A stretch of 64,000 nucleotides of DNA, from the NCBI GenBank assembly GCA_030386875.1, contig CM059568.1, positions 23,988,120 to 24,052,119 on the forward strand, given 5' to 3'. Source of the stretch: Morinoia aosen (lineage: Eukaryota; Arthropoda; Malacostraca; Amphipoda; Talitridae). Every line of letters starts with the position of its first letter. Position 1 is the first letter of the stretch. Below are positions 3,401 to 59,100 of this stretch, in pieces. A program made the position numbers and the translations under genes. The notes under the pieces are model-generated. The model ran no database searches. It saw nothing but the letters and a program-made list of their open reading frames with translations, and had not been told where the DNA came from.

Positions 3401-5513
3401 CATACACACATTGGGTGTGTATGGGAAGCATTGGGTTGAGACGAATTAACATCCGAGATCTGATCTTAAATCTGGAGATCCTAACGTTGTACATATGAGC
3501 CACTCGTTGATCGGAAGAATGCAATATTCCCACCTTTGCACATAAAACTGGGTCTCACGAAACAATTTATGAAGGCAGTGGCAACTGATAGCATGTGTTT
3601 GTAGCACATCATCTTGGGATTTCGTGGACCGTCAATCGATAAAATCAAAGTCGGTGTGTTTAATAATTCATATATTGGACTGCTCATCATAGATGAATAG
3701 TTCATCGGTACCCTGTCAGACCTTGAAAAAAGTGTTTCCTATAATTCAAAGACGTCTTCAATAACTTTTTTGAAAATACACGTGAAGTAATTACACAGAA
3801 ATTTTTCAGAAATTGTTGGAGCGCTGCAAAGCGCGGATCTTTTCAAAATAAGCCCCGCCAAAAAGTTAACAACCGCCACCCAAAAAATATTATAATAAGA
3901 GAAGATGAAACTTGTACCTTTAGTTTTTATTGAAAAAGGTGAAATTAGGGAGTATCATTAATAATTTTCATGAAAAGGTTCGTATTTCGGTATCTTGCCA
4001 GCTTTCCGTAAATTCTTGGTGACGCTAGCGACGAGCAAGATGAACGACTTCACAAAGATTTGAAGGCTAAAGAAAAACGTTACCAGAGTAGATGAGATGT
4101 TCATATGATGGCTGACTATTGTTAATTGCAGCATCAAATGTGACAGTCCTCGAACTGATCACTCCATAAAAATCTGCAAGCGTAAATTTTTACCTTAACC
4201 TGTACAAAATAATAGCCTGATCCTTTATAAAAACACGATAAATGCTAAACAAGCCTATTTCTTTTTTATTATTTGTTAATATTTGCAGTTTTTTAGAAAA
4301 CAAACACTGTAACTGTTGCGTACATAATGTTAGATATTTTTCCAGAAAATGAAAACCCTATATATGGGTCAAAAAGTTGACGTGAAACAGAAAAAAGTGA
4401 GATCAGTTTTGGATTCAGCACCAAAAAATTACCTAATAAGAACTGTCAGACCAAACTCAACAAAAATTATGTTCCCTAATGTAATTAGTGAACTTCTTGC
4501 TGTAACACTCTGAAATAATAATTGACCTATTATCATCAAAGCTTTTTCTGTTGAACTAATGAGCTATAATTATTGAAATATTTTAATACATTGGGACACT
4601 TTTCATACCTAATTTTCAATACGGCATGTTCCTCTTCAAACCTTTTTTTCAAAAATTACAGCAGAAAATTTTACGACACCGAATGATCTTTCTATTTACC
4701 ACGTATTGCTGCCACCTATTAATATCTCAGTTATTTTTATGTTTTCAATTCAATATGAAATGAAGTGCGCCGACGCAGATTTCACCTCTGTTCGCATACA
4801 CTCTATCTGACTGCTTGGTTCGATACTAAATTTTATTTTCGAATGCTGAACGCGTTACGCTAACCTTTTTTTACGAAACTTGCGCTTAAAACCACCCAAC
4901 TCGATCTTTCATAGAAATTTTACTTATCATTATGGCTACTCAAATCGAAGGGTATGCTATTATTTCGCCAATCTCGATCTTTCCATTGAATTCTGCTTCG
5001 TGTCAATCCAATCTGAAAAAAAGTTTTTTCCACGAGTAGACACAGCCGTCCTTGTTCAGCCTGAAGAAACACCAGTGACGTACCACATTATTTCCCGTGT
5101 AGTCTGGCTCAAGCTTTTAGTTAACGTTTTACACTCGCTCAAGTTTGACATTCAAGTTGATCGCAACTTTAGCACGTGTTTTATTCGCTCGAATATTAAA
5201 AACGAATTTCCTTTTTAGTCCTTAAGTGTAAACGAACACCTTCCACATGTATGATGCCTTCATTTAATCGCATCCTAACTTAAGCCAACTAAACCATTAA
5301 TCCTCCCTGCTTTACTCAGGAGAAAAGACAACTTATAAATGTCAGACAAAAATCGCATAGAAGACTTAAAATGTACCATACAGAACCTAATCGTATGGAG
5401 CACACTCATTCGTGTTTACAATGATCAGACACGCAAACGGGATAAAAAAAAACGTATACTACATGAGCTAAACAAACCCTGAAACTTTGTGCAAATATGT
5501 CAATAAAAACCAA
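3401..5513. other. Unassigned DNA; a small MITE fragment at 3835-3859
   Basis: No gene is supported. GGATCTTTTCAAAATAAGCC at 3835 matches the terminal sequence of the foldback MITE family found at 15171-16000 and 53291-53690, so a fragment of it probably sits here. The 112-codon open frame at 4880-5218 starts at TTG and has no recognisable motif. Confidence 0.4.
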
Positions 5514-7652: not shown

Positions 7653-7886
7653 TTAACACTTTGACTGCGGCAACTAGGTATTAATTAAGTTCACCACCAA
7701 ACTCAAATTTTTAAGTCAATTATAGAAAACTATTTTGGAAATATCAAACATAAACGGGATCGTGCATGTATTTAGTTGTGATTAAATATTTATGAAAATT
7801 GAGTTTGCGACTATTGGTCGGTGAGCAGCATTATGAAAATTTCCTCCGTGTACCACCGGTGGCGCACGTCGCAGTCAAAGTGTTAA
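7653..7886 (+). mobile_element. piggyBac-type MITE, copy 1
   Basis: The element begins TTAACACTTTGACTGCG and ends with the inverted form CGCAGTCAAAGTGTTAA, with TTAA at both borders (7653-7656, 7883-7886) as expected for piggyBac insertion. There is no ORF. The interior matches copy 2 (8378-8598) in reverse orientation and, more weakly, copy 3 (24965-25186). It is nested inside the Harbinger-type element. Confidence 0.8.
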
Positions 7887-8377
7887 TAAATCGCGCAGTG
7901 TTCTATAATATGGAAGCTAATAAGTCTTAAATAAGCAATTATGTGTCATTTTATTCATATAATTAGTCGTAATTTCTGTATAAAATAAAGCGGAATATTA
8001 CCATTTACCGTGACGTTTCATTCGTGACGTTTCATTTTCAAATGCTGTAACTTTTCCATATATCGGAATGTTTATCAGGTAGAATTTTATGATAAATAAA
8101 GTGGTCAGAAATTTGAAAAAGAATAGTCCATAGGTTTATAAGTTCAAACAGTTTAGCTGGATATGATGTAACTATCGAAGCCACAAAAAATAGAAAAAAC
8201 ATTTAAGAAGATTCACTCTATGAAGTCAGGTAACTGAATGTGCATGCATTTTTAATTTTCTATCATAAGTAGCGGGTAGAAAAATAGGCAATAATTTATT
8301 CAGCTTCTAATGATCAAACCATTTAATATGTTTTTTAGGCTTGAACCTAACTATATCAATATACCAAATGAATGGGG

Positions 8378-8598
8378 TTAACACTTTGACTGCGACGTGC
8401 GCCACCGGTGGTATACGGAGGTAATTTTCATAATGCTGCTCACCGACGCAAACTCAATTTCCATAAATATCTAATCAAAGCTAAAGGAAGGCACGATCCA
8501 GTTCATGTTTGGTATTTTCAAAATAGTTTACTACAATTGACTTAAAATTTGAGTTTGGTGTTGAACTTTATATTTAGTTGCCGCAGTCAAAGTGTTAA
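8378..8598 (-). mobile_element. piggyBac-type MITE, copy 2 (inverted relative to copy 1)
   Basis: TTAA-bounded element with TTAACACTTTGACTGCG at the left end and CGCAGTCAAAGTGTTAA at the right. Its interior is the reverse complement of copy 1: the ACCGGTGG segment is near the left end here and near the right end in copy 1. Being slightly shorter than copy 1, it has small internal deletions. The two copies form a 0.95-kb inverted pair inside the same host element. Confidence 0.8.
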
Positions 8599-28147: not shown

Positions 28148-29159
28148 TTTAAGGCCATCGAACGGTTTTTTCCTCGATATTTCCAAAAAACAGATAAAAA
28201 TACTTCCGGAGTGAAATAGGCTCTGAGGTATTAACAACATGTTTATAACAATCTAATAAACATTCGTAGCCCATAAAATTTTAAAATTTACCCACACCCC
28301 CTTCCTCCCCCTCGAAGGGAAATTTTAAAAAAATCTTATTTCTCAACCAATATTTTACATAGAGATGATTAGTTTTTTTGTTCGATTCAAAATAAACTGG
28401 TCTACAAAGTCAAGATTCAGTTTTTTGATATCGCTTCAAAAAAATGTAAAAAATGTTTGAATTAAAAAAAAAAATTTTCAATTTTTTCTTCAAATGGCTG
28501 TAAAAATTTTCTAATCAACTTATCAAAAAGCTACATCTCATCTTTATAGTACTCACCTTGATCTTTACGATGCTGAAAAGATCACCTTCATAAATGAAAA
28601 ACTGTGGGAGTAATAAAGCAGCGCAGCCAAAAAAAAATCACTTCGAGGAAAAAGCGCTCAACTTTTTCAAGTATATCTCCAACAGTTTTTTACTTTGGAT
28701 GAGATCTTTTTTTGCATTTTAAGGATCAAGGTGAGTACTATAAACCTGCATAGTTGTTTTTTGATAAGTTAAATAGACATTTTTTTACTGCCATTCAAAG
28801 TAAAAACTAAAATGTAATATGTAATAGAGATCAAAAATTCAAAACTTCCTTAATTTTTTTTGAAGCGATATCAAAAAACTGGATCATAACTTTGTAGACC
28901 AGTTCATTGTGAATGGAACAAAAAAATTAATCGTCTCTATGTACAATATTGGCTTAGAAATGATATTTTTTAGAAATTTCCCTTTGAGGGGGGGAGGAGG
29001 GGGTTGCGGGTAAATTTCAAAAAATTTTGGGCTCTGAACATCCATTCGAATGTTCTAATTTTCTAAACATGTTGTGAACACCTCCAAGCTCATTTCGCTC
29101 TTGAAGTATCTTTTACTAATTTTGAAGTTTTATAAGAAAAACAGTTCGATGGCCTTAAA
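28148..29159. mobile_element. 1.0-kb foldback element (palindrome, ~480-bp arms)
   Basis: Both ends begin TTTAAGGCCATCGAAC when read inward. The arms are inverted copies along their whole length, with small mismatches and indels. Paired blocks include AACATGTTTA, TTTACCC followed by a CCCCCTTCCTCCCC tract (G-rich on the other arm at about 28985-29010), ACATAGAGAYGATTA, ACTGGTCTACAAAG, CAGTTTTTTGATATCGCTTC and ACTCACCTTGATC. The centre is near 28640-28680. No ORF is present. The absence of a unique spacer of any length distinguishes it from an ordinary MITE and fits the foldback type. No target duplication could be fixed. Confidence 0.85.
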
Positions 29160-39546: not shown

Positions 39547-40814
39547 AGAAGGATTGAGCTCACTGCATGTGGTATATACAGATCAGGTTATATTTATTTC
39601 ATCAATACTTTAATTAGCTAGGAAAATGGCAAAAAAAAAGATGAACAATTATTTGTTTAGATCTATGATGAAACACGTATACAACTGATAATTATTCGCG
39701 ACTTACTTTAGTGGACTAATTTGAATTTTACGCCTAGCCAGCTATACTGATGTTTAATAACATGCGATCACTAACATTGGTACATCTGTACTGTCTTTTA
39801 CAAATTGTTTTGTTTTCCTACAGTCTCCCTAAAGCGACAAAATCACCGAGGTGTGTGTCTTCTCGTTATTTTGTGTAAAATATTCATTTGATGCATGTAT
39901 CAATCTACCATGGTATCAGTGCTCTTTAGTGTTCAAGGCTAAATTGCACTTGTGCATCACTCTTGCATGAATGTGTGCGGTTGTTATTCACCAGCACCTC
40001 TGTTGTTTATTAACCCAGCATACAAATAAAAACACGCTCATATGCATGCTTCTGTTTGTATCAGACTGGCATTTATGCATGCATCATACTGTGACTACTT
40101 CGTTGCATGCCAAGCATCAAGTTCAAAGTCTCATATCTGGATTATAGAGATAATAGAACTACTTATCTCTGCAATTGCCTTCAAGTCTTTCATATGTTAC
40201 TTTTCGCTTTCGTCGTCACCCGCCTGTACCCTTGTAGGTTGCTGGATTCAGGACGGGTAGCCTAACGCTTCCTGGTTACGTTAAGTGGAAAAGTTTCACA
40301 TGTTTGAAGAAACGCTTTGGTAAGGTATTCTTAAACCGTGACTGCAGCAGTCAAAATGATAATGACATGTGCTCTTTGTGTGTGTAAATGGATTATGGAA
40401 TGTGTAATGAGTAGGTTTTTATTCAGAGTGTAATTTTGTTGCTCGCCGCACTCATGTTCTGTCGATCAATGAGACTGCTGTCGATATATTGATGATAAGT
40501 TAACGTGGGCCACGTAAGGCATCAAATCAGCGTGGATTCTTCCATCCTCATGCTACGTTTACGTTTGATAGAGATAGGTTGCTATTTGCGTACTCTGACA
40601 GTTTCTTTCATTACATTATTGATGGCTTTCTTTTTTCTGCAGATTTTTATGAGCCTGTTCTTCCTACTGTATGTTAATACTCGCTCTTTGAAAACTGTGA
40701 GAGCGACCACATTAGTCTAGCAGTTCGTTGAAAGCTTTTGAACAGTTTTGATGGCTATGTTGTTTGATTAAGGGGAGATATTTTACATTTATCTTTAAAT
40801 ATTATGAATACAGG

Positions 40815-42089
40815 TGTCGTGACCCTATTTATTTTATCTCGCTGAGGTCACGGTCTTCATTTTTCTCTGCCGTTATTCTTTGTTGCGATGCATGATATTT
40901 TTTCATGTTGTTATTAGTCGTGACATCAAGATTATTCGTCACTATTCATATATTTTCTACTTGGTAATATCAAGGTAGCTGCCACCAATACAGGGTTTCT
41001 GTATAAATATTTAATTCAATCTTCGGTAAGCGTTACGAGCGGCTTAAGGCCATAAATTAATCGTGCATTTTAGCCGTGTTTCCTGGCTTCAAACATTATT
41101 ACTTTCCTTCTGAATCATCATGTCCTCTCCTCCTATTTATCTGAGGGTTATTAAAGACACAGGAAATATCAAAGAAATTCACTATTGAACACAGGAAAAT
41201 ATTGAGACATTAATCATCGAAAATACGCATTAATTGAATGAATGTGACTTACGCATTCGCCAGCCTAATATACTTAGAAGCTTGAGTGGGAACTGGGATT
41301 TGACATGAAATCAGAGGGAAACTTATCTTGAGATTTGGAGATCGGTCTCGCAGTCTGAATGTCGCCTGGCTGGCGCGCTGGAGCAAGGTCGCCATGTTTG
41401 GTTGAGGGCAGAGAGACCAGGTTGATGGCTGGGGCTATGCCGACAGTTAGCAATCTAGGTTGACAATCTCTAATTTACGTTATTGGCACTGCAGTTGAGT
41501 ATTCTTGAAGTTAATCACTTTCGAGCGAATGAGGGCACAGATATCCTAGGATGGCTTTGAGTAGTGAATTTAAGAGGCAAGCCTCGGCCCAACTGGACCA
41601 AGGTAGAGGAACAAACTCGTATGCGGCTGCTTGTGATCGTGTCCTCGCCTCAACTGCCGCTCTCCCTCAGGCAACCGCGTCTGGCGTCCCCTTGAGGTGC
41701 CAAGTTTGAATATCGACCTAACAAGGTTACCAATAAGAACGTGATATATCCCTATTATCAAATAGAAAACATACATCATTAACCTTACCCTCATTACTAT
41801 ATAAAAATCCCCACAAAACAATGTTAAACATATGAATTAAAGCAAATGAAGACATCCGTTGAGGTTCTTAGCATCTTCCGTTAGCGTCTTCGTTCGTAAC
41901 GCGTATCGACGACGTCTGGGCGTTGTTCCTGACGAGTCGACTGTTCTTGAATTTAATGTTGCAATGCTTCCTCGCAGAAATCAGGCTTAATATTTGGTCT
42001 TTTGAATCATTTATGAATAAGTCGTTGGCCGGACGATTATTCAGATCCTTAGCGGTATTCCTTACACAGTTATGCGGAGAAGCATGACA
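40815..42089 (-). repeat. Long terminal repeat (3' LTR in element orientation)
   Basis: 1275 bp. It differs from the partner LTR by three substitutions and a 5-bp GGCCC segment (near 41584) present only here. Both LTRs contain the same 5' part of a minus-strand open frame (MFCGDFYIVMRVRLMMYVFY...); the 5-bp difference shifts its end, so it is not a conserved protein. Confidence 0.95.
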
Positions 42090-42101
42090 TCCCCCGTGGC
42101 C
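42090..42101 (-). promoter_or_regulatory. Candidate polypurine tract
   Basis: The minus strand reads ACGGGGGA immediately before the TGTCATGC start of the LTR, the position of the plus-strand primer of reverse transcription. Confidence 0.55.
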
Positions 42102-43020
42102 GAACAAATCACAAGCTCCTGCTTGTGCTCGAAAGGCTTATCTTCGACGTTGCTCATCACGTGCAGCCGACGCCTTAATGCGTGGATTATGGGAAGAGTC
42201 AAGATGCTTACAACTGGAGTTTGCTCTTCTGGCGAGCGCTGATTCAGAGTCGTCAAATAAAGGAGTCATTATAGTCGTCCTATGGGCAGAACCGTGTCCT
42301 ATAGATGACACCGACTTCTCCCTCCGTTGCGTGGATCACTGCAGTAATCCTTGAGAGTGAAAACCCTCGGAAGTGTAGCGAACACTTCCAAATACACCCA
42401 AGTCGTATAATCCTGGGCTGCATGACTTGCTCCACCACTTGCAGAAGTCTTATAGAGATCTCCGAAATATATTCCGTGTGTCGTCGGTCGAAGTGGACTA
42501 CTATCTCGTGGAGTTCATCATCTTTTTTGGGGTTGCGTAGGACTCGCTGCCTTTATGCTGAGATCTTTGAGTTGATACGTTGATTTTCATCCGGGCCTCC
42601 GTATTATTTTCATCGTCGTTGATTACATCAGAAGCCGTCGTCGTCGAATCCATCCGAAGTCCGAAGTCGTGATTGAAATCCCTATGTTGAGCTGTCCTTT
42701 AAATTTTAAATGCCCGTCGTTTTCTATTCACCGTGCCTCAGTAGAAAATTAGCCGCGGTCGTCGACCCAGTCCGCTGATAAGAAATTTTCTTCGCGTACT
42801 CGTTTTCTACGAGTCGGTGCGCGAGCTCAGATCTGCCGCTGCGTGTCGTGTTTCGAGCGTCGAGGTAGATGGTGGAGTATGGAGCGGGGTGCAGCGTGCG
42901 TTCGTGTGTGCGCGGCCAACCCGTAGTAGTGATGCCGTCCGAGCAGGGCGACCGTGATGCGTCTGTGGTTGAGTCTCTCACCACTCCTGGTGACTGGCGA
43001 GTGATGGTGCGCCGGCGCAA
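42102..43020 (-). pseudogene. Internal region with short minus-strand frames, possibly Gag-derived
   Basis: This GC-richer part of the element holds several overlapping minus-strand frames. A 98-codon ORF (42724-43020) starts at ATG and is rich in Arg, Thr and Ser (MRRRTITRQSPGVVRDSTTD at its start). Further on, near 42300-42540, another frame reads DDELHEIVVHFDRRHTEYIS, then LLQVVEQVMQPRIIRL. There is no CCHC zinc knuckle, protease DTG or polymerase motif, and frames change more than once. Position after the leader and before the polypurine tract would suit a decayed gag. That is an inference from position, not homology. Confidence 0.35.
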
Positions 43021-44723
43021 GCGTTCAACCGCGCTCAGCTGATGTCATCCACCACTCCTGAAAGGTCAATCCCATTAAGTGTTTGTTCTGATGTTCTTCT
43101 TTAATTTTTCCCAAGTCTCCCTCTTACATCACATCAATCAAGCCTTCCCTCTCAAACTCCCAAGTATTTACAAAAAGACTTAAGCATCCTACGTTTGAAT
43201 TTTACGTTATTATAAGCAAATTACGAATAGAACATAAGGTTCAAAAAAATTATTTAAGTATAGATCGCAAAGTTTAAAATTAATTACATCCTACGAGTAC
43301 ACACACATTTACGGAATTATCGAAATACATGAAAGTGAAACAAATTGAACTATTTTCCCCACACAGAAATATTAATTACAAAAATTATACATAGTATTTA
43401 AATTTGACCAACTCGACGCAATGAAATTCATAGTCACGTTCAGGACCAGTAGAACATGTATGCGCAAACATATTAATATGAGATCGTCGTGATCGAATAA
43501 ACCCGTTTGAAACAAATCATCACCCTTATGAAGTTTTAGATTTCTGAATTACCAATTCACTGTATTATTCAGATGGATTATGGATTATCGTGACTTCACA
43601 GCTGTTTCCATGTTATTAATCCATATCGCTCATAGCTAGAATCATTATGTGACGTACCTCGCAGGTAACTAATTATTTTAAGAGTAATAGTAAATCTAAT
43701 TCTTTAGATTATTCGCCAAAATGAAATTGTTCCGAAGAATCGTGATTAAATTTTGAAACCTTAACTAACTAGTAACTCTAATAGCAGACAAACGCCTCTG
43801 GTTTACATTCATTCTAGTTGAAACTGTGCCATTTGGTATTTAAATTGAATCTATTGTATTTAAATATCAAATTTAAAATTGTTAAAGAATGCTATCTCCG
43901 GAAATTGGAATAAAATTATCTATAAGCTGGTTTTGATCATTAGTATTTAAATTTTGAATAAAAATTCACATGATATTGACATAATTATGCCGTGGTATCC
44001 GCATGAATTTGTTTGATGAACGTCGAATAAGAAATTTTACACGCAGTAATGATGAAATAATTAAATTTTTACGTTCTCACATGTAATTAAATTTATTTTT
44101 CATTAGAAAAACGTAAATATTACATGCCTAAACTAAGAAAATCGTGATTCACAACATTTATCGTTCGCGTTATTGAAGTTTAGAATCATGGAAAGCTCTA
44201 GCGTGTGGCATTTGTGGCAGTTCGTACGCGGGTACGTGGGCTTTGTTTATGTATCACATGCCATTGGCGTGGGGAAGCGAGCGGCTGCTGCGGTAAGCCA
44301 GCCCTACCCAAGGACTTAGGAATGTTCGATCTTAACATTCGTCTCCAACGTAGCATGTTGTTACATTTCAGTTTTTACATTACAGTTTTAACGTTGGGTA
44401 GTGCAGAAAATGTTACATACATGGTAGTTAAAATTACTTGATGAAGGGATACGTTGCACATCCGTACCTATTATGAGTCTATCGACAACATTGAAATATG
44501 AAACATTAATACATTACTTTATCGTTCCAAATGACATTCTGCAAATAAGTATTCATTAGGAAGAGAGAGATAAGATGATTCAGATAAAGAAATTATTTTT
44601 AGTCGGCCAAATATAAATTTTTAATTTTGAATGTTTGAATGCACGTATATATTTTTTTTCGGAGGTGTGAGTCCGGTAGGCATGAGATTTTACAGTAACA
44701 TTCACATTTAAAGCAAAACTCAA
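43021..44723 (-). other. AT-rich internal leader of the LTR element
   Basis: About 1.7 kb with no open frame of note and AT-rich composition unlike the GC-richer half next to it. The + strand frame 44205-44441 has no motif. It may be an unrelated insertion or a long untranslated leader. Confidence 0.5.
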
Positions 44724-44743
44724 ATCCCAACGCTCAGCCACCA
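44724..44743 (-). promoter_or_regulatory. Candidate tRNA primer-binding site
   Basis: The minus strand reads TGGTGGCTGAGCGTTGGGAT, two bases after the LTR. It starts with the TGG complementary to tRNA CCA, and the GGGATTTGA a little further on resembles the complement of a tRNA T-arm. The exact tRNA is not identified. Confidence 0.6.
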
Positions 44744-44745
44744 TA

Positions 44746-46015
44746 TGTCGTGACCCTATTTATTTTATCTCGCTGAGGTCACGGTCTTCATTTTTCTCTG
44801 CCGTTATTCTTTGTTGCGATGCATGATATTTTTTCATGTTGTTATTAGTCGTGACATCAAGATTATTCGTCACTATTCATATATTTTCTACTTGGTAATA
44901 TCAAGGTAGCTGCCACCAATACAGGGTTTCTGTATAAATATTTAATTCAATCTTCGGTAAGCGTTACGAGCGGCTTAAGGCCATAAATTAATCGTGCATT
45001 TTAGCCGTGTTTCCTGGCTTCAAACATTATTACTTTCCTTCTGAATCATCATGTCCTCTCCTCCTATTTATCTGAGGGTTATTAAAGACACAGGAAATAT
45101 CAAAGAAATTCACTATTGAACACAGGAAAATATTGAGACATTAATCATCGAAAATACGCATTAATTGAATGAATGTGACTTACGCATTCGCCATCCTAAT
45201 ATACTTAGAAGCTTGAGTGGGAACTGGGATTTGACATGAAATCAGAGGGAAACTTATCTTGAGATTTGGAGATCGGTCTCGCAGTCTGAATGTCGCCTGG
45301 CTGGCGCGCTGGAGCAAGGTCGCCATGTTTGGTTGAGGGCAGAGAGACCAGGTTGATGGCTGGGGCTATGCCGACAGTTAGCAATCTAGGTTGACAATCT
45401 CTAATTTACGTTATTGGCACTGCAGTTGAGTATTCTTGAAGTTAATCACTTTCGAGCGAATGAGGGCACAGATATCCTAGGATGGCTTTGAGTAGTGAAT
45501 TTAAGAGGCAAGCCTCAACTGGACCAAGGTAGAGGAACAAACTCGTATGCGGCTGCTTGTGATCGTGTCCTCGCCTCAACTGCCGCTCTCCCTCAGGCAA
45601 CCGCGTCTGGCGTCCCCTTGAGGTGCCAAGTTTGAATATCGACCTAACAAGGTTACCAATAAGAACGTGATATATCCCTATTATCAAATAGAAAACATAC
45701 ATCATTAACCTTACCCTCATTACTATATAAAAATCCCCACAAAACAATGTTAGACATATGAATTAAAGCAAATGAAGACATCCGTTGAGGTTCTTAGCAT
45801 CTTCCGTTAGCGTCTTCGTTCGTAACGCGTATCGACGACGTCTGGGCGTTGTTCCTGACGAGTCGACTGTTCTTGAATTTAATGTTGCAATGCTTCCTCG
45901 CAGAAATCAGGCTTAATATTTGGTCTTTTGAATCATTTATGAATAAGTCGTTGGCCGGACGATTATTCAGATCCTTAGCGATATTCCTTACACAGTTATG
46001 CGGAGAAGCATGACA
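44746..46015 (-). repeat. Long terminal repeat (5' LTR in element orientation)
   Basis: 1270 bp, three substitutions and one 5-bp deletion relative to 40815-42089. About 0.24% substitution divergence indicates a recent insertion. Confidence 0.95.
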
Positions 46016-47234
46016 CAGGGTTTTTGAATCTGTGGATTGGCATAAAATTTGATCTCGTTTTCTTCACGGTCCTTCATTTTGCAAGGTTAACTCCGTCCAG
46101 GTATCAAACTCATTCCTTTGAAATCATTCTCGTGATTCTCATAGGTAGAGTAATCCATCTCTCTTTCCGCAAATAGTTCCGCAAATTGTTCGCTATTCCA
46201 TTAATTCACGCAAATCTTTCGGTGTTAAACGAAGACAACAAAATTTAGGACACGCATTTAGTATGTGTTCCTATTTTTGCTTGATGCAATGTTTTTTTTT
46301 CTCCAACAGAGCGATAATTTCTAGCGCGTACAATTCATTTGAAATTGCCTTGTTTTTGTTCGTTTGACTTAAACTGTAATTCAATATTGTAAATTTTACG
46401 GGTGACAAAAAGCATGTTTTTTGACTTGAATATACAGCAAAGCAATTACAGTATATTGTCGGCTGTATCTATTAGTGCTTATGGTCTTAGCAACGAGGAA
46501 GAAATGAAAATAATTATCCTGACTTGCCTTTGGTTAGTGCCCACACGAGGCAGTGATCGAGACGCAGTAGGTACTATTTATATGACTGTCACGCGCTCCG
46601 CTGACGTCAGGAGGCATGCCCTATTTCTTTCGAGGAAGTGGCTACAGAATTAAAAGTCAGAGCTTAGGGCTAAAGTCCAGGATCTTGACGACGTAGGTGT
46701 GTCTCCTTGGAGAAACAGAAACCAGACTACTCTTTTCAAAGGAAAAGTCCTTTCGCGTTGATTTTTTTCTCTATTATTGATCGTCAATTGTTTTCATATT
46801 CAAAAAACTAGTTGATGTTAGAAATTTACTACGCTATCTCAAAACCTGAATTTACCAACGAAATTCTTCAACTGGTAGCACTCGCTTGTTATCAAACTCA
46901 TAACACTGGTGGTTTCGAAGACGAAGTACAATTGCGAGTTCGGATTTAGTTTTTTTCAGAAAGTCTGTTTTTAATCAACGCTTTTTTATTGAACGCGTCA
47001 TTAGAGCTAAAGGTTGTGTTGAGGGACACGTTTTTGTATTTTTAACAAAACGTAAGCAGTACTTGTATGGGATATTGCACCAGACTCTAATTAGAACCCC
47101 GATACAATAAAATAAATTGGTAATATGTACCTTATCAGCAGTCGAGGAGTGTGTTATGTGTGATGTCTCATTCTCTCTCAGCCCTTGTCTTGCGTCGGTG
47201 ACAATGCGTTGTGATGCTAGCGTTTGATCAAAAC
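46016..47234. other. Unassigned DNA between the LTR element and a foldback element
   Basis: No gene is recognised. The frame 46402-46653 has no family motif. GCTGACGTCAGG near 46606 is a palindrome containing a CRE-like octamer, but nothing nearby suggests a promoter. Confidence 0.4.
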
Positions 47235-48227
47235 ACTACAGCTTTTTAACGTTAATTTAAAAGAGCTCAAGTTCAATTTAAAAAAGCTTAAGTTTAATTT
47301 AAAAAAGGTCCAGTTCAATTTAAAAAAGCTCAAGTTTAATTTAAAAAAGATCAAATTTAATTTAAAAAATCTCAAGCAGGCTATATTTAAAAAAAAGATG
47401 AATTTCAATTTTGAAAAGCTGAGGTTTCTGAAATTTCATACTTATGTAATAATAATATAAGTAAAGTTTATTTGTGAGAAGGCATATTTATTTAAACGTA
47501 GTGGCCCTGAAAATAGAGTTAATCGAATATCAGACAAACCGAGCTGCTGTGATTTTGTACTTTATTTGACATTCTTTAAGTTTTACCTATGAGTCATTTG
47601 CTAAATCATTTGCTAAACAGATCATAGGTACTTATTTCTATTGATAAAAATGATGCGAATAAACTTTATGTAATAAATAATTGTGTGACAATTAGTAAAT
47701 TGAAATGACTGAAAAGTTGAAGCTCAGTAATGTTCAATTTTTCAGTCAGTGCAGTTTGCTAATTGTCACACAGTTACTTATTACATAAAGTTTATTCGCA
47801 TCATTTTTGTCAATAGATATAAGTACCGATGATCTGTTTAGCAAATGATTCATAGGTAAAACTTAAAGAATGTCAAATTAAGTACAAAATCACAGCAGCT
47901 CGGTTTGTCTGAAATTCGATTGACTCTACATATTTTCAGTGCCAGTACTTTTAAATAAATATGCATTCTCACAAATAAACTTTTCTAATATTATTATTAA
48001 ATAGGTATGCAATTTTAGAAACATAAGCTTTTCAAAATTGAACTTGATCTTTTTTATATATAGCCTACTTGAGACATTTTCAATTAAACTTAATCTTTTT
48101 TAAATTAAACTTGAGCTTTTTAAATTGAACTTGAGCTTTTTTAAATTGAACTTGAGCTATTTAAATTGAACTTGAGCTTTTTTAAATTGAACTTGAGCTT
48201 TTTAAATTAAAGTTAAAAAGCTGTAGT
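47235..48227. mobile_element. Foldback element with minisatellite arms
   Basis: Ends ACTACAGCTTTTTAAC and GTTAAAAAGCTGTAGT are inverted, and the two halves pair almost to the centre (about 47728). The outer arm segments are tandem arrays of a 21-bp unit (AAAGCTCAAGTTTAATTTAA plus A), about six on the left (47257-47385) and about seven on the right (48060-48215). The inner arm is unique sequence matched at near identity: ACTTTATGTAATAAATAAT against the inverse near 47790, GATCATAGGTACTTATTTCT, and ATTCTTTAAGTTTTACCTA. This design, long inverted repeats with tandem outer repeats, is that of Drosophila FB-type elements. No transposase and no clear target duplication are seen. Confidence 0.88.
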
Positions 48228-53690: not shown

Positions 53691-54939
53691 CAGTGACACG
53701 CAAACATTCTCAGCGTTCTTTCTTGAATAACACGTCAGCAATTACAGGGATGAACAGGAAACCCCCTAGTCCGTTAAAATTTCAGATTCAGAAAAAAATT
53801 CTCCAAGGGAAAAAATAGAGTTTCATAGTTTTCAAAGTCAGCACTTGACTTAGGGCCATGAACCAGTGTGAAGTATTGTGGTGACGGCCTGTAAGATATT
53901 TTCAAGACGTTATATTCTGGACGTTTTGGTTGACATTACAGTCGTTATTTGATACTTTTGTAATTTTCTTAAGAAGCTAATATCACTGTTGAAATTAGAT
54001 GAAAATAGGTTCATGTATCGTGAAATAATGTATTCTTGAGAGCTCGTGCTTGTTTCAAGTGGACACGCTCATTTCATTCACCTGCTACTCTGAACACCAA
54101 ATTTCTTCGGAATTTCTAGCACAACTCATTGAGTTTACTTAGTCTCGCGGTCAACGGTCTCATTTGCAGAAAGATCATAAGCAAGCATGCTTGTTGAACT
54201 GCACCAGTGTAATGACTGACCTGAGACTGTCCTGACCTAATGACTGTCCTGAGTTTAACTGCTGTGATTTTTCGTACGTCTACGCACATGATTTCACATA
54301 GAGAACAAATTTACCTCTCGGGTCACATAGCCCAGTGCATGCAGAAGTGCGCGGAAAACACGTAATGCACACTGACGTCAGCAAATTAAACTCAGAAGCT
54401 TGTTTCCTTATTCATCTATCACCTTATCACGTTCAGCTATTTCCGGTTGTTAGTTTGTCTAATGAACTTTTCCGGTAAAATTTTCTATAAATCCAAGCAG
54501 TCTGGCAGCTGCTCTGCAGGATAAAATATCATTTTTCATGATTTTGAACTCCATGGTGATTACAAGATAACATTTTCGATCTTATACGTAGCTCCTGTTA
54601 AATTAGTTTCATACGAATATAATTCAAACTAGTTGTATCAGAGCTCTCTGCATTCCCTGCATACTATGACTTACCAACGTAGCTAACTTAAATTTGAAGC
54701 TTTAAATACAGGTTTTCGATCAATTGTAACGTGACTTTTGCATAATATTGTTTTTATACTCGCCATATACTGTTTTTCCCTACTGTTTTTCCCTAGTGAA
54801 AACGTGAAAATGAAAATAAATTGAATATTAATCTAATTCATTCACTTGAATACTGTATTACTAGAAATTTTGCTAATCTTGTTTTTTGGGCGAAGCATGC
54901 TTCCGAGCTCCCTATAATGTTAATACTTTTTCTGGACAG
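53691..54939. other. Upstream intron or intergenic DNA of the exon pair
   Basis: No exon is recognised. Tandem-like ACTGACCTGAGACTGTCCTG units occur near 54215-54255. The 3' end (ACTTTTTCTGGACAG) is the acceptor of the exon at 54940. Confidence 0.5.
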
Positions 54940-55448
54940 AGTTGAACAAACAGAAGATATCATTCACTACTCATCTGGGCCAAGAATTTCGAGCGGATAC
55001 GTTATAAGTAGCAATACCAGCATCCATTCGAGTCCTGACTCAAAAATTCTCGGACGGCATTCAAACATCAACAAGCACAAAGTTATTCCAGATATTAAAC
55101 CCAGAAACGCGGCTTTGGCTAGAACTGTCGGTAGCAAATCAATTTCTGGTCACCGAAATCCCGATATTCCTCTGGCTTTTGGAACGCGTGCTCCAGTTCC
55201 CCCTAAAGGACGCACAGAAACAGAATCCAATCGTCGACCTAAATTCGTTAACAAGAAATCAACTCCAAGAGACAAAAATTCAAAAATGGCTCCCAATCCT
55301 CGGTCCCAATCACAAGAAGATGGCAGCGCTGTTATTTCTGGGCATAAGATCGCCCCCAATCTTCGCTATAATGGAGAAAATGCCAATGGTCACCCATTGG
55401 AACATTATGACCAGAACAGCCGCATCGGGTCTCCTCAGAACTCTGACG
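54940..55448 (+). CDS. Coding exon of an unrecognised protein: basic, Ser/Asn/Pro-rich segment
   Basis: The frame is open for over 200 codons, by far the longest in the window, and ends at a textbook donor, GACG|GTAAGT. The acceptor is probably TACTTTTTCTGGACAG|A at 54939. An alternative acceptor (ACAAACAG) would start it at 54954. The 170 residues read VEQTEDIIHYSSGPRISS at the start and GHPLEHYDQNSRIGSP near the end. They are rich in Ser, Asn, Pro, Lys and Arg with few hydrophobics, with no membrane segment, and they contain short recurring pieces (ISGHRNPD / ISGHKIAPN / APNLR / APNPR). This points to a disordered region. The exon ends in phase 1, and its last base plus the first two of the next exon make a Gly codon. 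No family is recognised, and upstream exons are unknown. Confidence 0.8.
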
Positions 55449-55667
55449 GTAAGTTGAGGTAGAACTCTGATAGTATACAAACTTTTTTGTCAGACAATGG
55501 AATTTGATTCGTATAATAGATTGAAGTTTTATATTTACGGCGTAGAGAAATGAAGTGGTCAATTTTTTTCGAGTTTATTTTGTTGTTCTTCGTTCTTTTG
55601 CATGAAGCTCGTGTTCATCATTTTCATGTCACTGCTTAAAATCTGATGTAATTATTTTATCAAAAAG
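55449..55667 (+). other. Short intron between the two exons
   Basis: 219 bases, GTAAGT at the 5' end and TTATTTTATCAAAAAG at the 3' end. The acceptor's pyrimidine tract is weak, but the reading frame joins exactly. Confidence 0.8.
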
Positions 55668-56131
55668 GTGTGCATGGAGAAGTCACTCCTGTTGTCATCG
55701 ATGAGACTCCCGCCCTTCGGGAGCTCGATGAAGCCATCGCTTCATCTCAGCGAAGTTCTAATTCCTCTCCGGTCAAAGCAAATGATGAATTTTTCAAAGA
55801 AACACCTGTAAAAGTGGAACACAAGCCGGTTGATAAGCAAACTGAAGAAGTTGCTGTACAAGCTGAAGTTCCAATTGCCGACCAAGGCGATAATGCTCAA
55901 GCTGATAGTCAAAATAATGAACTTTCTCAGACTGATGATAGAACTCAAGATCCTTCTGAAGATGAAAAAAAGACTTTAGAAACAGAGCAGACTGAAAACT
56001 ATAATGAAGCTCTTAGTGCTTCTCAATCCATAGAAAACTTCGTTGACGCAGCAGAAGAGCTCGACAGCCCTGAGACAACAGGGGAAAAAGCTATTCATGT
56101 TGAAGTCTCTCCTAAGGAGACAGACGAGACG
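55668..56131 (+). CDS. Coding exon of the same unrecognised protein: acidic segment
   Basis: Joined to the previous exon, the sequence reads ...NSDG-VHGEVTPVVIDETPALRE and stays open for 154 codons to GACG|GTAAGA, leaving in phase 0. It is strongly acidic (Glu, Asp) with Gln, Ser and Thr and hardly any aromatic residues, for example EDEKKTLETEQTENYNEALS. It has weak helix-forming stretches such as ALRELDEAIASSQ. This is the reverse charge of the preceding exon and again looks disordered. Low-complexity acidic tails of this kind occur in cytoskeletal, chromatin and adaptor proteins, so composition does not identify it. A GTG at 55670 is internal, not a start. The next exon downstream is not found; TTATTTTAG at about 56773 is a possible but weak acceptor. 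Confidence 0.8.
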
Positions 56132-59100
56132 GTAAGATTTTAAATATTATTACCTCATGCTTACTAAACCGCATCTATGTGTGTTAGATACGTCAATTTC
56201 CTTTTATCTTTTTCCACTCTCAATTTATTTTTGTTTTTCTTTTGCCCTGCCCTTGCCGCCACAACTCTATTTTGTTCTTTTCCTAGTATGTGACCGTGTT
56301 TAACGTCTTCAGAAAAATTGCATTTACCGTTTTGTAAACGCCTCAATCTAGCTGATCTATGGTCTTCGTACTTCAACTAGTAGTTTCAACTCATAATTAT
56401 GCGTGGCTCGTCAGTTCAGAGTTTAACCAATCAGTTGTAGGAAATTTTTATAAGTTTTTACAACCGATTGGATTTCTTTAACCTATGTATGTAGCGCTAA
56501 TGCTTCATTAGCACATATAATGAGAAATTATTTTTCTGAAACCGTATTCATACATTTTGGTGGATTTTTGAAGTTTCATCCTGAAGTCACTCAAGTGTTT
56601 AGAGTGAGGGTGTGCGATATTCAAAATTTGTTACGTCGTTGACAGTTATGTTTTTTATTAAATAACTGGATTTAAGCGGAAGCATAGTTCGCAATTTTTG
56701 AGGGGAATAAATAATTTTTTTCGTAATTCTTGGCACTTTTTGCTTTCTCCGAAGTTCAACTGTAATTTATTTTAGTCACGTAGTAGACTAGTGGTCTCTT
56801 TTCTTTTGACACTTCGCACTTGTGGAGATTACTAAGTAGCGACCGCCAGCATTGCGCAAAACGGACTCTGCCCTCTGTTGGTTCTTCCGCCAGCTTCTAT
56901 GCTCTGTTTTCGCGCCAGAGACTTGGGCGATGTGCTCTGCAGCTTGCGGTGCCGGCAACTGCGTAGTGGGGAAAGGCGGTTTGTTCTAGATTTAGTAAGC
57001 AGGCAAAAAATTGCCTTGCTTTATTATTGAACTTTAACATAGAATTAGGATATTATAAGTTACGGTTGAGCTCCGATTGAGAAAAATACAGGTTGTGTAC
57101 ATCATATACTTTTTGAATGCACTTATGACAGACATATTTAAGGAATGCGTTAAAAACTGAAATTTTATGATGTAACTGCGAATGCTAGAGACTGTTTTGA
57201 TGCCTCATTACTATGTGATTATGATATTCTAAATTATGAGGATTGTGCATGTTTCTCAAGTTCTTGCTGCTGTACATAGCATAAGCGCGAAAGCACCGTG
57301 GCTGAGATGCGTTTGCGGACAGGTGAAGCGCACAGGAGAAAAATATTTGGAAAACTTTCCCTAATTCAATTCCCGCGTGAAATTGAAGAAAGGGGCATCT
57401 CAGTGCTGCAATCTTTATAGTGCACTTCTGACGTCAAATGTCTGAGTGAGGGCCAAGACGGCTTGAAATAGCGTTGCGTCTCGCTTAACCCTGCACAGGG
57501 GACGAAGCGTCTGCTTATTTATGGGCAACTCTTTGTCATGATGTTATTTTTTTTATTGATTGTCATCCAGCGTACGCAAGTCACTGGCGTTTGATTTTAT
57601 TGGTTTCCATTAGAAAAAGAACTAGCGTGGGCTCACTGCTGCTCTGAAAGTAACAAGCGCACGTTTATTTTTTAGTGCCGTTTTAATTTTGATGAAACCT
57701 ATAAGAATGGAGAGAAAATAATACTATTTGACACTGGAGTTTTTCAAACTGTTGGTTAGTACATTTTTTTGAGTATGGGTGGATAGACACCGAAGTCAGG
57801 CGAGGAAAATAAAGTGAAAATAAATGAAATGAATAAATAAAATTCACTTCGACGTCAGTGGCGACTGCTTCAATATTTCATATGCATTTGGACAGTTTTT
57901 GGACGTGTTCGAGATCCAAGCCGCTGATAATAGAAAAATTAAAAAATGAATTGTGTCTCTGGCAACATACTGTAATATTTTTGTGTGCGTTGGAGAAAAC
58001 GATTTTCAAGCACAAGACGATTTTTTTCGTTTTGTGTGGATTGTTGAAACAAAAATTTTCGTGTAGATTTGAATTTTGTATAAAAAATGCTTATTAAATG
58101 TTTTCGTATAATCCGATTTATACCTGTGCAATAGTGACAGGAAGTGAAAAACATGGCTTCCAAAAGAAATTTAGCGCAAATTTATTATTCAACAATTATG
58201 TAAAATTCTTTTTATCCGTTATGAGCGATTGTTGCTTATAAGCTCCATTATTTTTTTAATAGTTTAACAGATTCTTTTTTTCTGGGTGATCAATGTATAG
58301 TCGTGTACATATAAGTTTTACCATAAACAATTTTCTTGGTTGTATAAAATCTAATTATGTATACAATCCTTCACCTATCTTTGATTTTTTAAACTCTTTG
58401 TGGACTTCCACTGACATGGCAATGCATTTTCCTTCTATTTTATGACCGCGATGAGTATTTGAACTCGGATAAAATGTTTTGTTAGAAAATGCTTGCGAAA
58501 TGCCGAAATTTTTCACTTGTATAAAATTTCGCTGCTCGTTTGAAGTCAAAGACATGAAACGAAAGACGCCCCATCATCATTGTGCTTGGAGAACCTTGTG
58601 ACCGCCAATGGGAGCTCGCGCGCATCGTACGATTGCTCAGGGAACAGGTTTCCTCTGTCATGGTGGTAAAAACTTGCTGCTCAGCAATTGCAGATGTGTT
58701 GGTCCACGTTTATGTTTTGAGATCATATAACATTATGGAATCATTACATGATGAAATACTGATTTTTGCCCATTTTCGGATGTGGATCAGGTTAACCACT
58801 TCTCTCTTCGTGTAACTCACGTTTTGTTCTCTAACTCTCAAATCTTTCCAGTCGTAGAATATTCAGTCGTGCTATTTCACGTGTATAAATCGAATTTATA
58901 CATATTGGTCATTTCAAATGATTTTATTTGTTTCTTTGACGCAACAAGAAATGAAACTTGACATTTTTATGTTTTTTTTACCATAAAATTAATTGTAACT
59001 TGATTACTCCAGTTTTGGCCGTAAGCTGATAACTACTACTGATTGATTCTAAAGTTTTAATGCTATCTAATAGTAGTCGAGTCACGTTCTCAATAGATCG

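Follow-up and report, generated by a model that had tools for sequence, protein, structure and literature searches.

Our analysis of a 64,000-bp stretch of the Morinoia aosen genome (C13:23988120-24052119, hereafter the window) indicates that the 5.2-kb element at window positions 40815 to 46015, corresponding to C13:24028934-24034134, is best explained as a non-autonomous long terminal repeat (LTR) retrotransposon of the large retrotransposon derivative (LARD) type, with its sense direction on the minus strand. This explanation draws on the LTR pair, a 4-bp target-site duplication, a primer-binding site (PBS), a polypurine tract (PPT), a non-coding interior, a dispersed family, solo LTRs and mosaic copies. 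We hold with high confidence to its core, namely that the element is non-autonomous and was moved in trans. Two of the alternatives weighed below, which concern the origin of the family and the identity of its partner, overlap with this core. The features of the element are as follows.

40811..40814, no strand: left target-site duplication CAGG (direct flank; 4-bp duplications occur family-wide)
40815..42089, minus strand: LTR1 of 1275 bp, which is the 3' LTR when read in sense (self-alignment; sense from PBS and PPT)
40818..40852, minus strand: predicted hairpin in the 3'-terminal part of the LTR, its stem 8 bp long and its loop containing AATAAA (folding; stem comparison of LTRs)
42090..44745, minus strand: interior of 2656 bp, non-coding in frame and Pfam tests and homologous in other copies
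42090..42099, minus strand: short polypurine tract region CCACGGGGGA, adjoining the 3' LTR (read by eye; kept across copies)
42110..42127, minus strand: hairpin CACAAGC-AGGA-GCTTGTG upstream of the PPT (predicted in all complete interiors)
44719..44743, minus strand: PBS, a variant of the tRNA-Leu PBS that is two bases longer than in related copies (PBS comparison)
44746..46015, minus strand: LTR2 of 1270 bp, which is the 5' LTR when read in sense (self-alignment)
46016..46019, no strand: right target-site duplication CAGG (direct flank)

Re-alignment reproduced exactly the LTR lengths, three substitutions, 5-bp indel and CAGG duplication reported in a first-pass annotation of the window. The substitutions lie at 41263 (G/T), 41827 (A/G) and 42055 (G/A), and the single 5-bp gap at 41585-41589. 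The LTR ends read TGTCG...TGACA, and together the LTRs make up 2545 of the 5201 bp (49%), in agreement with the earlier statement that they form half of the 5.2-kb element. The sense direction was assigned to the minus strand because the PBS and PPT, read by eye, fit that strand only. Both of these signals, which had been proposed as candidates on the minus strand of a 2.66-kb interior, were located there, and visual inspection of the plus strand revealed neither one. The sole tandem repeat of the interior is one 33-bp low-copy array, and no second copy of the family was detected inside the 64-kb window at E 1e-3. An LTR of 1.27 kb is long, yet not exceptional. Barley-type LARD elements have LTRs longer than this 1.27 kb. 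In Culex, an element of the Osvaldo lineage has an LTR of 2137 bp (PMC3286476).

No coding capacity was seen in the interior, as judged from frame lengths, Pfam, frame conservation and homology among copies. Between stops, no frame exceeds 106 aa, a length reached by 39.6% of 500 first-order Markov sequences. A Pfam search with all six frames of LTR1 and the interior (X at stops) returned a single chance-level line (YolD, E 0.15), which bears out the annotated lack of a reverse transcriptase (RT), protease or integrase motif. Chance-level lines only were also obtained with seven open reading frames of the window, five of which lie within the element. These Pfam scans of the element apply to the window copy; for the remaining interiors, the assessment relied on their length and homology. 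Across 10 copies, none of the 12 frames of at least 60 aa in the window interior showed a third-position excess of variation, and the number of copies with a given frame open ranged from 2 to 9.

Both the LTR and the interior served as queries against the host assembly (29 contigs, 1.99 Gb in total). Scoring covered 40 of 1259 first-look LTR candidates (41 matches, identity 94% or more) and 40 of 464 first-look interior candidates (47 matches), and all counts are therefore lower bounds. At least 27 of the 47 interior matches listed, the window's included, cover the entire interior at 93-100%, and they are spread over 15 contigs. The 26 regions that were fetched hold all 38 full LTR matches of the LTR search lying outside the window. 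They comprise 11 complete LTR-interior-LTR loci, among which one holds two interiors (L009, L013, L014, L015, L016, L020, L025, L026, L027, L030 and L033), 12 solo LTRs (L010, L011, L012, L017, L018, L019, L021, L023, L024, L028, L029 and L031) and three damaged copies (L022, L032 and L034). The 13 complete interiors, including that of the window, measure 2621-2723 bp and are homologous throughout; those fetched match the window interior at 92-97%, so that interiors unrelated between copies, an outcome the annotation had named as fatal to its reading, did not occur. Two pairs of loci, L013/L014 (on C22 and C12) and L025/L026 (on C25, ~1 Mb apart), are 99.8-99.9% identical including 300-bp flanks and, by this likeness, are recent segmental duplications or assembly duplicates. 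Merging these pairs and excluding the three damaged copies leaves 22 insertions (the window, nine complete and 12 solo), 19 of which, the window's among them, carry an exact 4-bp target duplication. Over the 10 independent complete insertions, LTR-LTR divergence was 0.16-0.94% with a mean of 0.50%, and the window copy stands at 0.24%. An insect-like substitution rate would be about 3e-9 per site per generation. At that rate, which may not be the host's, the 0.24% divergence would correspond to an age of about 0.4 million generations. Copy count and divergence distribution had both been suggested earlier as checks. The dispersal of the family, its low LTR divergence and its 4-bp duplications, along with the tRNA-Leu PBS of related copies and the lack of coding capacity, sustain the description of a young, complete and non-autonomous element.

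Some copies are interrupted or partly deleted. A common inserted repeat of 1.85 kb, 93.8% identical between the two, was found at L032:7834-9706 and L034:5475-7316, and in L034 a 45-bp inverted LTR piece lies beside it. L022, L032 and L034, which match only in part, had been considered as larger partners of the family; given their common insert, L032 and L034 are interrupted, partly deleted copies. The interior match of L022 ends at interior position 2030, and those of two copies on C7 end at 2148/2149 in the interior search.

The PBS of L009 and L027 reads TGGTGGCAGCGGTGGGATTTGAG; over 19 bases from its start it is complementary to the 3' end of a tRNA-Leu with CCA added. L015 has the same PBS save one change. 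The marks of an LTR retrotransposon that were looked for are present, namely near-identical TG..CA LTRs with a duplication, a tRNA 3'-end PBS (L009 and L027) and a PPT, which is short, occurs across copies and adjoins the 3' LTR. The 22-nt tRNA-Leu end GGTTCRAATCCCACCGCTGCCA was searched in the host, where it matched 24 sites, 16 of them on C25 at 34.2-36.5 Mb (reversed-pattern control, 0); two of the 24 matches were read as letters, and all 24 count as putative tRNA-Leu ends on the strength of the pattern match. A variant PBS, two bases longer (TGGYGGCTGAGCGTTGGG), is carried by the window copy and by L013, L014, L016, L020, L030 and L033, and L025/L026 have a form intermediate between canonical and variant. 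The canonical PBS with its leader, searched as an exact pattern, occurs at 30 genome sites (control, 0), a count that leaves out the variant-PBS copies, the window's among them.

Distances between copies differ with the part of the element compared. By LTR, L009 is equally close (1.8%) to the window and to L013, with L027 at 5.3%; by interior, it differs from L027 by 2.1% and from L013 by 6.7%. We then examined 122 interior sites that separate the chosen groups L013/L015/L016 and L025/L027/L030/L033. Between columns 347 and 553 the window interior agrees with the second group at nearly all separating sites; from column 1039 onward it agrees with the first, apart from one isolated site. Its four separating sites before column 347 are mixed. 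Since LTR and interior distances disagree and the breakpoints are sharp, we read these patterns as RT template switching. Sharp group switches are as expected if the enzyme moved between two co-packaged RNAs, and gene conversion between copies could also produce them. L015 is an LTR-interior-LTR-interior-LTR array within one TAGT duplication, and its second and third LTRs are identical; the simple reading is unequal LTR recombination. Two family PBS sites in one orientation, C25:3766458 and C25:3770420, lie 3,962 bp apart, which suggests another LTR tandem array. A same-orientation pair of tRNA-Leu PBS sites ~4 kb apart (C6:83665024 and C6:83669346) suggests a further one.

Based on these observations, we propose that the LTR would drive an RNA ending in the other LTR, and that the Gag of an autonomous tRNA-Leu-primed Ty3/gypsy element would package this RNA. 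Minus-strand DNA would be primed by tRNA-Leu, the foreign RT would jump between co-packaged RNAs to yield mosaic copies, and insertion by the foreign integrase would duplicate 4 bp of target. Recombination between LTRs could afterwards leave either a solo LTR or an array of the form LTR-interior-LTR-interior-LTR. Mobilisation in trans of this kind would fit both the mosaic copies and the young insertions.

LARDs have been described in plants. They are presented in the relevant section of PMC7215508 as LTR elements that have a core domain, yield no protein and presumably rely on trans-complementation; tallies in PMC4028053 and PMC9143410 include LARDs in the honey bee and the whitefly, respectively. 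Our element is likened to LARDs by description rather than by sequence comparison with a named LARD family: it has LTRs, PBS and PPT, it is dispersed, and its kb-sized non-coding interior is conserved between copies, with no gag, pol or env in the members examined. Terminal-repeat retrotransposons in miniature (TRIMs) are likewise non-coding LTR retrotransposons thought to move in trans, and the section of PMC7215508 on Cassandra describes arrays of about three LTRs, similar to the tandem arrays seen here. However, TRIMs are short with little interior, whereas our element has 1.27-kb LTRs and a 2.66-kb interior, and membership was rejected on that ground. According to the part of PMC3286476 concerned, Culex has 38 non-coding LTR families without a master copy, and others in Anopheles lack tandem repeats. 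The cqUNK families of Culex quinquefasciatus resemble our element in their LTR pair, tRNA-type PBS, target duplication, missing coding capacity and missing master copy (PMC3286476); they differ in having tandem repeats, with LTRs of 208-389 bp in the rows given, whereas our element's interior has only its 33-bp array.

The partner is probably a tRNA-Leu-primed Ty3/gypsy element. In the rows given in PMC3286476, cqgypsy_29 of the Mdg3 lineage combines a Leu PBS with 4-bp duplications (gttg, atag), and Mag-lineage elements of Culex have a Leu or Ser PBS with five-base duplications. Our element thus shares the tRNA-Leu PBS and the 4-bp duplication with Mdg3 (PMC3286476), but cqgypsy_29 is protein-coding and its LTRs measure 263-264 bp, whereas the window element has no pol. 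Mdg3 descent therefore cannot be read from a pol phylogeny, and the element is not filed as a Mdg3 member.

The annotation had also held that an active autonomous partner must exist in the genome. A search for integrase H2C2 gave 16374 candidates; all 150 that were scored exceeded the cut-off, with stop-free frames of up to 1571 aa, and enzyme sources therefore exist in this genome. A pattern of LTR end plus PBS with the family's leader bases barred matched four sites, and a looser one matched 28 (controls, 0); one site was common to both, giving 31 distinct sites. The leader ATCTTTATC is common to 14 of the 28 looser-pattern sites, and the rest mostly differ. These other families share CACGACA and a two-base spacer with our element. 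Pfam found no domain in the three sense frames of L039 (6.0 kb), L040 (2.6 kb) or L041 (1.9 kb), the latter two stretches being too short to exclude pol further downstream. L039, covered from its PBS to its 3' LTR, belongs to another LTR family: its LTR end is found again, at 93%, 4.56 kb further downstream, and its longest frame is 169 aa. The L041 leader is related to that of L039 (140 nt at 71%, 41 nt at 83%). The proposed search for full-length, pol-bearing partners thus led to other families without a Pfam domain in the parts covered. No pol-bearing member with the same LTR occurred among the 11 complete loci and the window (a minority of the 1259 LTR and 464 interior first-look candidates), and viral contigs gave no match to the LTR end with the canonical PBS. 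Hence, the earlier claim stands in part: non-autonomous status is supported, but no autonomous element sharing LTR, PBS and PPT with the family was found, integrase frames are plentiful yet none was linked to the family, and the partner is one that we infer.

Several observations weigh against our interpretation. All 31 other tRNA-Leu sites and all 30 family PBS sites are more than 15 kb away from each of the 150 integrase hits scored out of 16374 candidates; because so many candidates existed, this null is weak either way. The window PBS pairs with tRNA-Leu only via a 2-nt bulge. A Mdg3-like partner is most likely, and that affinity is read from two characters only, the PBS and the duplication length. 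Two frames located at the conserved ends of the interior, one of 65 aa in sense and one of 87 aa in antisense, stay open in all but one of 10 copies, with only 5 and 8 variable sites. At three of the 22 insertions (L012, L017 and L029) no exact duplication is present. Across the element, examined in 51 windows of 150 nt, predicted RNA folding was for the most part ordinary, with z between -2.6 and +3.1.

With this in mind, we considered how else the family could have arisen. Many non-autonomous elements originate by internal deletion, and only part of the LTR and interior candidates was scored, which leaves room for an autonomous family with the same LTRs whose pol-bearing members survive. We regard this origin as unlikely, since the complete interiors are uniform in length and homologous throughout, most of the interior matches listed span the whole interior, and no Gag or Pol remnant is present in the window copy. 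Mobilisation through loose packaging by an unrelated Ty3/gypsy or BEL element would account for the lack of a tRNA-Leu-primed pol element among the sites covered, and open frames bearing integrase from unassigned families are abundant. The 19-nt tRNA-Leu PBS and the CACGACA and two-base spacer common to other families suggest, however, a shared RT and integrase, and we consider loose packaging quite improbable as a substitute for the tRNA-Leu-primed partner. Those shared signals also invite a tentative proposal, which we think possible though doubtful: unrelated non-coding LTR families that have only the tRNA-Leu PBS, the two-base spacer and a similar LTR terminus in common may form a guild served by one enzyme source, in which selection kept only the few bases required for recognition by the machinery. 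The window element would then belong to this guild, and its longer PBS would reflect either specificity for a second primer or a bulge that is tolerated.

A purely segmental or assembly duplication of unique sequence, the other refuting outcome named in the annotation, has next to no probability. The shared 300-bp flanks of L013/L014 and L025/L026 show that two locus pairs are nonetheless of this kind; the other sites have different flanks, and solo LTRs occur. This alternative is refuted for the family because its dispersed insertions carry their own 4-bp target duplications. It is also very improbable that the element is more than selfish, with an interior or LTR that encodes a regulatory RNA under selection. 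The last ~700 interior columns vary little (2-10 variable sites per 100), and folding is best at sense positions 3501-3750 (z -2.6 and -1.9). Nevertheless, packaging and priming signals are expected at the ends, one z of -2.6 among 51 windows is unremarkable, and Rfam returned no match over the cut-off and three chance-level lines below it (best E 0.39). Taken together, these comparisons favor a non-autonomous LTR retrotransposon moved in trans.

Two local structures deserve mention. The LTR-end hairpin with its AATAAA loop (z -2.0; 4 of 200 shuffles fold equally well) is a possible poly(A) hairpin, and its stem is intact in 24 of 25 LTRs (26 rows, one L015 LTR being counted twice) and broken in one L020 LTR. 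The hairpin upstream of the PPT is predicted in a 6-7-bp form in 13 of 13 interiors. The hairpin columns are nearly invariant, and covariation therefore cannot test either structure.

Other repeats were noted in the window. A near-palindromic foldback element of ~990 bp lies at 47235-48227; its arms are complementary at 86.6%, each outer part contains 21-bp tandem repeats, and the ends read ACTACAGCTTTTTAAC.../...GTTAAAAAGCTGTAGT. Terminal inverted repeats starting TTAACACTTTGACTGC bound positions 7653-8598, where TTAA is also found just beyond the right end; this resembles what we take to be a piggyBac-type miniature inverted-repeat transposable element. An inverted-repeat element with similar ends TTTAAGGCCATCGAAC and arms matching at 76% over 489 bp occupies 28148-29159. 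The sole open frames of at least 130 aa in the window (220, 149 and 163 aa) lie at 54800-56143; they have no Pfam domain over the cut-off and are perhaps host-gene exons.

In conclusion, a protein-less LTR element that borrows another's enzymes follows a known lifestyle, and the find is mostly ordinary. It provides a clean and recent LARD-type example, whose copies in a genome assembled into long contigs include complete and mosaic elements as well as solo LTRs and tandem arrays. If the pol-less tRNA-Leu-primed families depend on one autonomous element, they would show which few bases suffice to parasitise the machinery of an LTR retrotransposon.

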